A DNA stretch of 64,000 nt from contig NZ_KE383931.1 of NCBI RefSeq assembly GCF_000422845.1, positions 435,863 through 499,862 on the forward strand. Direction: 5' to 3'. Every line of letters starts with the position of its first letter. Position 1 is the stretch's first letter. A model generated the notes under the pieces. The model saw only the letters and a program-made list of their open reading frames with translations, searched no databases and was not told the origin of the DNA. Shown piece by piece: positions 37,700-39,800 of this stretch. Source of the stretch: Oceanobacter kriegii DSM 6294. Lineage in GTDB: Bacteria; Pseudomonadota; Gammaproteobacteria; Pseudomonadales; Oceanobacteraceae. A program made the translations under genes and the position numbers.

Positions 37700-37966
37700 A
37701 GGGACCCTCTGAAAAACTCGGTGCCCGCTCTGGATGACAGGGAGAAGCTGAATCACGAAGCTGATTTGCAGGCCTGACGGGTCAAGTCAAAAATCAGCGA
37801 CACAGAGTCAGCGATGCCCTGCCATCCCCGTAGGGCGCGGCCTGCAGCCTGCCAGAACGGTGTTGGCGAATTTGGAAAGGGCCAACCATTCCGCTGCATT
37901 CGCCGCCTTGTTCTGACAACCTGCAGGACACGCGCAGAGCTGTGCAGAGTTTTTCAGAGGGTCCCT
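37700..37966 (+). repeat. Structured dispersed element, copy 2 (267 bp)
   Basis: Same length as copy 1 with no gaps, and about 70% identical (my hand count is 80 differences). The terminal 20-bp inverted repeat is AGGGACCCTCTGAAAAACTC and its exact complement, different from that of copy 1 at ten positions, all compensated on the other side. The inner helices are retained by paired changes as well. Conserved unpaired blocks include GAATCACGAAGC, GCAGGCCTGACGGGTCAAGT and CGACACAGAGTC. It lies between the acyltransferase start and the FIST-like gene stop, with no clear promoter. The rest of 37642-38049 holds nothing else recognisable. Confidence 0.85.
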
Positions 37967-38049: not shown

Positions 38050-39066
38050 TCAGTCTATCCGCAGGTACACCATCGTCTGGTTCACCAACTGATAGGCAAT
38101 TTCACCGAAGGTCATGGGGCCGACCATACGGCCGGTTTTCTGGCCCTCCAGCTCACCGTAGAGGTAGTTCAGAATGCAGTTGCAGCAGAACGCTGTTTCC
38201 AGCGAGTCATCCGGTATGGCGTTTTTAATGGCCTCGGCATAGGGCGGAATCGACCCAGCAATGCGGTATTCCAGCTCCGGAAACACCGGCGCGTAGAGCT
38301 TCACCAAGCCCTGCTCCACATCCACTTCCTGCACACTGACGTTAATGAACGCGCCGCAGTAGTCCGCCACCAGCGGCAAGCGGGTATCGATCTGCATTTC
38401 TTTCAGGTAGTGGGCAAAGTTGGTCAACTTGCCATCCACTTCGACCTCCGTCACCACAAAACCGGACTCCCGGAATCGCAGCGCCGGGCCTGCCCCTGGC
38501 GAAAACAGGTTAACGGTCTCGATGCTGGCGGCCTTGTCCATATCCAGTGCCACGTGCATGGCCACTGCCTGATCTTCCAGAAATTCGCCGGTTGGGCCGA
38601 ACACGGTTTTTGGCGTTCGACTGCCCAGATCATCAAGATGCGCACCGGCTACCCAGCCCACCAAGGGCTGCATGTACATGCCATCGAATTCCGGGGCATC
38701 GTGGGCAAAGGTTTGATGAATCTCCGAAAAGGCCGGAACAATCAGTACGGTGAAACCATTGGTCGGTGCATCCAGACACAATGAGTGAATACTGCCCACA
38801 TCGTAGGTGCACAAGCCCGGATCGCCACTGGCAGATGGCAGCGGGTTAACAAACACCTGATCACGACGGCACACGCCGCCTTCGTCGGTCATGAAATAGG
38901 GAATGGTGCCGCCAATCCATAGCCCTTTCGGCAGCTGCTTGAGGGCTTCTTCATCCCCGGCTACCGACACTCCGGCGCCGGCCAAAATCAGTTGGCTGGC
39001 CTCGGCAATGCTCATCAATTGGCCGTTTATGGCCGAAATACGATCACCTGTGGACGTCATACTCAT
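38050..39066 (-). CDS. FIST_C-like protein, unknown function
   Basis: A 338-residue protein, probably cytosolic. The C-terminal region, with FCCNCILNYLYGELEGQ followed by GPMTFGEIAYQLVNQT, resembles the end of FIST_C domains (Cys-rich strand, then a GFYTYGEI-like element) of small-ligand sensors. The N-terminal part (about 1-180) fits no family I know. No signal peptide or membrane helix is visible. It follows the ISL3-like gene with an ATGA overlap, so the two are coupled. The FIST resemblance is partial and should be treated as a hint. Confidence 0.6.
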   Translation of the reverse strand: MSMTSTGDRISAINGQLMSIAEASQLILAGAGVSVAGDEEALKQLPKGLWIGGTIPYFMTDEGGVCRRDQVFVNPLPSASGDPGLCTYDVGSIHSLCLDAPTNGFTVLIVPAFSEIHQTFAHDAPEFDGMYMQPLVGWVAGAHLDDLGSRTPKTVFGPTGEFLEDQAVAMHVALDMDKAASIETVNLFSPGAGPALRFRESGFVVTEVEVDGKLTNFAHYLKEMQIDTRLPLVADYCGAFINVSVQEVDVEQGLVKLYAPVFPELEYRIAGSIPPYAEAIKNAIPDDSLETAFCCNCILNYLYGELEGQKTGRMVGPMTFGEIAYQLVNQTMVYLRID

Positions 39067-39800
39067 TGCAGCGCCCCCCGAATCTGTTCAACTTCGTGCA
39101 GGGTCGAACCCTTGTTTTTCTCGAAGTACAGACGCAGCTGTTGGGCTTTCAACAAACGCACGTCGTCGTCTTTGGCACTGGAGTATTGCTGGCGCAACTT
39201 CATCAGCATCAGGCGCAACCCCAGATTGCGCATTTCGAGGTCCTTGTCGCCCTTCAACAGCTCATGCCAAATGGTGGCACTGGCCTCTGGCAGAGCATCT
39301 TCCTCCACCACAAGCTCAGCAACCGGCTCCGCAGATTCAACGCTCTCGACGGCCGGTGGCAGCATTTTTTCAAAGCCAGCACCCAGTCGACCGGTATCCA
39401 GTCCACGCTTGAACTGCCACAGTTTATCGGCATCCAGATCCAGCAAGCGGCCAATCACCCCCAACGAAATACCTTCCGACAACATGCGGAATATCCGTTG
39501 CCCCATGGCATGGGTAAAGCCGGAATTGTCGTCCCCGGCCCACGGCAGGTCTGGTAGTACGCCACCTTCCGGGTAATCAACCCGCACGGTACAACGCAGC
39601 GCACCCAGGTTCACATGACGCCAGATTTTGTGATGTCCGCGAAAATTCTGCACCGCGCGACGGGCACCAAACCAGCCACTGCGGGCCTGGCCGATGTGCA
39701 CTTCAACACGCTGGTAGGTTTCGTTAATGCGGATATCGTGGATGATCCATGGCGCTGTAACGCCCATGAGTTGTTCAACGGCTTCGTAGTTCATCGGCAA
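39063..39800 (-). CDS. ISL3 transposase N-terminal-like protein, probably domesticated
   Basis: A 245-residue protein. Residues about 15-110 follow the N-terminal plan of ISL3 transposases: W-I-hD-I-R-I then EVHIG, an R/K-WRHVNLGALRCTVRVDYPEGGVLPDLPWAGDDNSGFT stretch (WRHL...Y...vPR...G....PWA...S.FT in ISL3), and a helix-turn-helix like GVIGRLLDLDADKLWQFK. The zinc cysteines are replaced (SGWFGARRAV). The DDE catalytic domain is absent; instead there is a charged helical C-terminus. It overlaps the FIST-like gene by four bases, so it is likely a stable DNA-binding partner rather than a decaying transposase. The frame is open throughout. Confidence 0.6.
   Translation of the reverse strand: MPMNYEAVEQLMGVTAPWIIHDIRINETYQRVEVHIGQARSGWFGARRAVQNFRGHHKIWRHVNLGALRCTVRVDYPEGGVLPDLPWAGDDNSGFTHAMGQRIFRMLSEGISLGVIGRLLDLDADKLWQFKRGLDTGRLGAGFEKMLPPAVESVESAEPVAELVVEEDALPEASATIWHELLKGDKDLEMRNLGLRLMLMKLRQQYSSAKDDDVRLLKAQQLRLYFEKNKGSTLHEVEQIRGALQ

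Follow-up and report, generated by a model that had tools for sequence, protein, structure and literature searches.

P0001 and P0002 are the products of two adjoining genes on the minus strand of the window (the whole 64,000-nucleotide stretch of Oceanobacter kriegii DNA that was analysed). The upstream gene (39063..39794) encodes the 243-residue P0001, which comprises an ISL3-derived N-terminal domain, a linker and one helical repeat domain; the downstream gene (38050..39066) encodes the 338-residue P0002. Both reading frames are intact, and the stop codon of P0001 (39063-39065) overlaps the ATG of P0002 (39064-39066) as ATGA (39063..39066; this is the four-base overlap that the original prediction had pointed out). 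The same overlap is found in other genomes of the genus and in the genome designated G775. Translation of P0001 most plausibly starts at the ATG at 39794, preceded by an AAGAGG ribosome-binding site; the mechanical start of the open reading frame is a TTG at 39800. Five of the six other genomes of the genus have P0001 homologues, at 60-75% identity.

An acyltransferase gene lies downstream of the pair, and a divergent enoyl-CoA hydratase gene, followed by a gene for a GGDEF protein, lies upstream. Just downstream of the pair, at 37700-37966, 267 bp are enclosed by perfect 20-bp inverted repeats (AGGGACCCTCTGAAAAACTC), and the element looks like a MITE-type one. A role in defence was considered and rejected: a PADLOC search gave no match for P0001 or P0002.

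The upstream protein: ISL3-related and helical repeat domains

Residues ~1-138 of P0001 (39381..39794) constitute a beta-rich part (a zinc-ribbon remnant that has lost its cysteines) and a three-helix HTH (residues 95-134, with predicted helices at 95-106, 111-117 and 122-134). The P0001 sequence by itself has no match in Pfam or NCBIfam. A first survey with the single protein as query matched, outside its own family, only N-terminal parts of ISL3 transposases (E 7e-5 to 4e-4), and a profile of the family aligns with ISL3 over 140 colinear columns (hhalign probability 98.3%, E 1.1e-14, score 101; 30 column-shuffled controls score at most 17.6 and reversed controls at most 12.7). P0001 does, as originally predicted, retain the N-terminal plan and HTH of an ISL3 transposase. 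What it shares with the IS204/IS1001/IS1096/IS1165 proteins is the LG..PW start, WRH(L/V) in the beta part, PWA(E/G)...S.FT and the HTH. Unlike these transposases, members of the P0001 family are fused to helical repeats, lie next to a DUF6976 gene and are encoded by a conserved single-copy gene. The DDE catalytic domain (PF01610) is absent from P0001 and its homologues, and has no match anywhere in the window's own genome; the zinc-ribbon cysteines are absent from P0001, and most of the family has lost them. Both absences had been predicted for P0001.

The cysteines are retained in distant homologues: those of G619 and G813 keep CxxC zinc motifs and match Pfam Zn_ribbon_ISL3 (E 3e-4 for G619; E 3e-6 and 28.0 bits, above the cut-off of 25.5, for G813). 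Matches of distant homologues to HTH_Tnp_ISL3 are weak (E 0.005-0.012, below cut-off). A profile made from the zinc-less members alone still retrieves ISL3 proteins (E 6e-13). Loss of the cysteines is by itself no sign of domestication, since the ISL3 proteins of L132 (4122-5363, full length with DDE) and L105 also have no N-terminal zinc cysteines. In a phylogenetic tree, one branch (support 97/96) parts all N-termini of the P0001 family from those of the transposases, a topology that fits a single capture of the ISL3 module without proving it. There is also an apparent second reuse of an ISL3 segment: three proteins that look desaturase-like by eye (L068, L069 and L074) match the ISL3 DDE model in their C-terminal part (~79-197, E 7e-9 to 4e-13). 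A literature search for ISL3 domestication gave nothing.

Residues ~173-243 of P0001 (39066..39278; repeat HMM E 3e-25) form a helical domain of ~70 amino acids with the motif W..LL.G....L.LML..LR.....L....LR.YF.KN....E..Q. It is present in one copy in the window's genus, three in sister genera, two in Ideonella, four in G813 and five in G619. Comparison with Pfam and the PDB yields no convincing relative; DUF7077 matches some repeat-domain members over ~42 residues; the best of these matches, from an alignment-wide scan, has E 7e-5, and where the curated cut-off is shown the matches fall below it. The notion that the repeat is a further piece of ISL3 was rejected (hhalign E ~0.5). Among the 28 partner proteins encoded directly upstream of DUF6976, the ISL3 part is fused to the repeat domain in 19, and the other nine (60-119 amino acids) are repeat domain alone. 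This makes the transposase module an optional add-on, and the smallest partners, each a lone repeat domain (nine loci), identify the repeat domain as the partner's core. We think, from this comparison, that it is also the core of P0001, which the original prediction overlooked.

Nonsynonymous differences per site amount to 0.11-0.25 in both genes and synonymous sites are near saturation, so that a dN/dS of ~0.1 is only a rough figure. To judge from these substitutions, P0001 and P0002 are under strong purifying selection. Within P0001, dN is far below dS over both conserved domains, and only the linker is loose. These values bear on the notion that P0001 is a decaying transposase fragment lying beside DUF6976 by chance, as an ISL3-derived N-terminus bereft of its DDE domain might suggest. 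With frames intact in all homologues, one shared branch separating all family N-termini from transposases, and both the fusion to a non-transposase repeat domain and the linkage to DUF6976 conserved, decay is scarcely credible, in agreement with what had been argued from the intact frame and tight coupling of the pair.

A more serious alternative casts P0001 as a transcription factor with the ISL3 HTH as its DNA-binding element, controlled by P0002 as ligand sensor. The three-helix HTH is kept under purifying selection; some basic residues persist in the recognition helix (W.(F/L/Y)K(R/F).LD.G) of the window's subgroup, G775 and Ideonella; and the structural matches of the P0001 N-terminus, although very weak, are mostly to HTH DNA-binding proteins. 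It is possible that the ISL3 part binds DNA, in the window's own subgroup as well. On the other hand, the net charge of the recognition-helix region is +2 to -4 in the family, against +3 to +5 for three of the four ISL3 proteins compared (0 for the other one), most members have lost the zinc cysteines, nine of the 28 partners do without any ISL3 part, and a comparison of six genomes of the genus shows neither an inverted repeat nor, apart from the ribosome-binding region, any conserved block in front of the operon. A transcription factor is, on this indirect evidence, unlikely.

DUF6976 and the FIST fold

P0002 is a member of Pfam DUF6976 (PF22396; E 7e-136, 452.7 bits, curated cut-off 27), a family of unknown function that is named in no paper of the literature searched. 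Neither Pfam FIST (PF08495) nor FIST_C (PF10442) matches P0002 or 15 of its homologues, even at E 10. The homology of DUF6976 to canonical FIST proteins is remote: the PF22396 model matches their FIST_C regions weakly and colinearly at the C-terminus (E 2e-4 to 2e-3), and hhalign aligns DUF6976 with FIST colinearly (E 6e-4, score 35.9, compared with at most 23.2 for shuffled controls). (A first FIST profile comparison of the P0002 family had given a probability of 15%, because the profiles were shallow.) The prediction of a FIST_C-like end for P0002 holds in this remote sense, and profile searches have accordingly found similarity to both ISL3 and FIST in the pair.

The AlphaFold (AF2) model of P0002 (pLDDT 82) matches the FIST fold, which consists of three YjgF-like repeats, as in FBXO22. 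When it is compared with the PDB, chains of this human FIST protein take the first four ranks (Z 10.3-11.3, with rmsd 3.7-4.1 over 215-221 residues), followed at a clear distance by chorismatases (Z 7.6) and cyanuric acid hydrolases (Z ~6). The same two enzyme groups have been reported as fold relatives of the FBXO22 FIST domain (PMC11185555), and this agreement supports a FIST fold for P0002; with FBXO22 as the best match, the label "FIST-like" is right. P0002 is taken to be a divergent FIST-fold protein that lies outside the present limits of Pfam FIST. It resembles FIST proteins (NosP-type sensors, FIST-MCP fusions and FBXO22) in whole-chain predicted fold, stand-alone FIST size, linkage with signalling genes and the C-terminal pattern CxC...G..T(F/Y)GE...NQT; it differs from them in lying outside Pfam FIST and FIST_C and in having a helical partner gene of its own.

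A single-sequence scan of genome contigs gave one short match, in an archaeal MAG. A viral origin of DUF6976 was considered and rejected, the sole viral match being a short chance one inside a phage terminase-like gene.

Linkage, distribution and gene neighbourhoods

DUF6976 is rare. It exceeds the cut-off in three of 398 genomes in the phylum survey (one of them a broken copy, at L029 6530-7159 and nearby in G261, which belongs to another family of the order), in six of 369 in the class survey and in 16 of 44 genomes of the window's family. Of the 33 intact loci with a readable upstream flank, 28 encode the repeat domain immediately before DUF6976. These 28 loci span alpha-, beta- and gammaproteobacteria: 15 are from the window's family, ten from other gammaproteobacterial families, and three are plasmid records (three of three, from Ideonella, Sphaerotilus and Pseudosulfitobacter, which were left out of profile building). 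The loci came from searches for relatives, so the 33 are not independent draws, 15 being from one family. In the 369- and 398-genome surveys the repeat domain occurs solely beside DUF6976, with the exception of one borderline match (E 0.007, in G274).

The five DUF6976 loci that have no repeat partner group into a single supported clade, within family f155, which implies that DUF6976 is able to work without the repeat domain. At three of the five, a protein-kinase-like gene lies directly upstream of DUF6976 (L150 5532-9083, L151 1950-4898 and L153 5975-7282; Pfam-backed for one) and is possibly a replacement partner.

The pair lies in or beside chemosensory genes in four lineages, a minority of the loci. 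In G619 and G813 it heads an operon that also encodes a response regulator, CheW, an MCP and a CheA-like protein; in G891 it precedes genes for two response regulators, CheW and an MCP-like protein; in G203, where the partner is a 92-residue repeat-domain protein, CheR and CheB lie beside it. (CheW, MCP, CheR, CheB and two response regulators are confirmed by Pfam; the CheA-like genes and the MCP-like gene of G891 were assigned by eye, and the incomplete CheA-like fragment of G619 has no Pfam match.) A search of the window's relatives with the response regulator of the G619 operon, aimed at a homologous operon in the window's own genome, matched only the common receiver domain and not the extra N-terminal domain of that regulator. 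The operons of G619, G813 and G891 resemble Pil-Chp/Che operons in combining response regulators, CheW and an MCP, and in G619 and G813 a CheA-like gene; they differ in the presence of the pair and in an extra N-terminal domain on the response regulator. We know of no Pil-Chp/Che operon that holds such a pair of FIST-like and repeat-domain genes. Genes for a hybrid histidine kinase and a GGDEF-EAL protein adjoin the Ideonella pair.

In the window's genus, no che or kinase-type gene adjoins the pair, and its neighbours are metabolic (acyltransferase, enoyl-CoA hydratase). In sister genera, a fusion of cNMP-binding and aldehyde dehydrogenase domains is divergent from the pair (L054 8954-10711, confirmed by Pfam; L053 2351-4108; L055 2064-3899). 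Taken together with the occurrence of the FIST fold in enzymes, this arrangement might indicate a cytoplasmic metabolic or stress module (one regulating the adjoining acyl-CoA or aldehyde metabolism, for example) whose chemosensory neighbourhoods are coincidental. However, the pair stays constant while its neighbours change between genera, and in four separate families it occurs together with chemosensory genes; such a module is rather improbable.

A putative signalling module

The reading that we favour, and to which the comparisons of sequence and neighbourhood lend an even chance, is that the pair is a FIST-type sensor together with an adaptor that feeds kinase or chemosensory signalling. 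The pair is rare, yet it is kept in three proteobacterial classes and recurs in or beside chemotaxis-type clusters, so that it probably constitutes a signalling module not described before. P0002 would act as the sensor, a divergent protein with the FIST fold that probably binds a ligand or cofactor in the cytoplasm. P0001 would be its dedicated partner, the helical domain most likely contacting P0002 or a downstream signalling protein, and the ISL3-derived module, fused in many lineages, may now serve for interaction or targeting. The output would go to phosphorelay or chemosensory signalling: in some bacteria within a CheW/MCP/CheA/response-regulator operon, and elsewhere, including the window's genome, in trans from a pair encoded away from the chemosensory machinery. 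The homologies, the predicted fold, the linkage, the domain architecture, the selection and the gene neighbourhoods are what the analysis shows; the binding of P0001 to P0002, the sensory role and the output are what we infer.

The sensory role is argued by analogy. FIST proteins are known to serve a neighbouring kinase as auxiliary sensors, as the heme/NO-binding NosP does for NosK (PMC12570481), and one protein of the window's own genome (L098 685-2703) joins canonical FIST N and C domains to an MCP signalling domain. Weighing against a signalling function are the metabolic neighbours of the pair in the window and in relatives where no che gene adjoins it, the partnerless DUF6976 clade, and the restriction of chemosensory loci to a minority. 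The original proposal of a sensor-regulator unit that has reused a transposase module survives in part: the ISL3 module, the FIST-like protein and a conserved unit under purifying selection stand, and a sensory role is suggested by analogy; a DNA-binding regulator is disfavoured by partners lacking the ISL3 part, by the less basic helix and by failure to find an operator.

More tentatively, and with appreciable doubt, the pair may represent a new class of sensory module, in which a divergent FIST receptor is joined by an obligate helical-repeat adaptor, and in which a transposase N-terminal domain was captured once in some lineages and repurposed from DNA binding to protein targeting in chemosensory signalling. 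For DUF6976, the analysis provides a predicted fold and a likely role, and it reveals a FIST-like protein whose dedicated partner is near-constant. The zinc-bearing, zinc-less and lost states of the ISL3 part form a graded series, in which a module of transposase origin has been put to use in a putative signalling protein.
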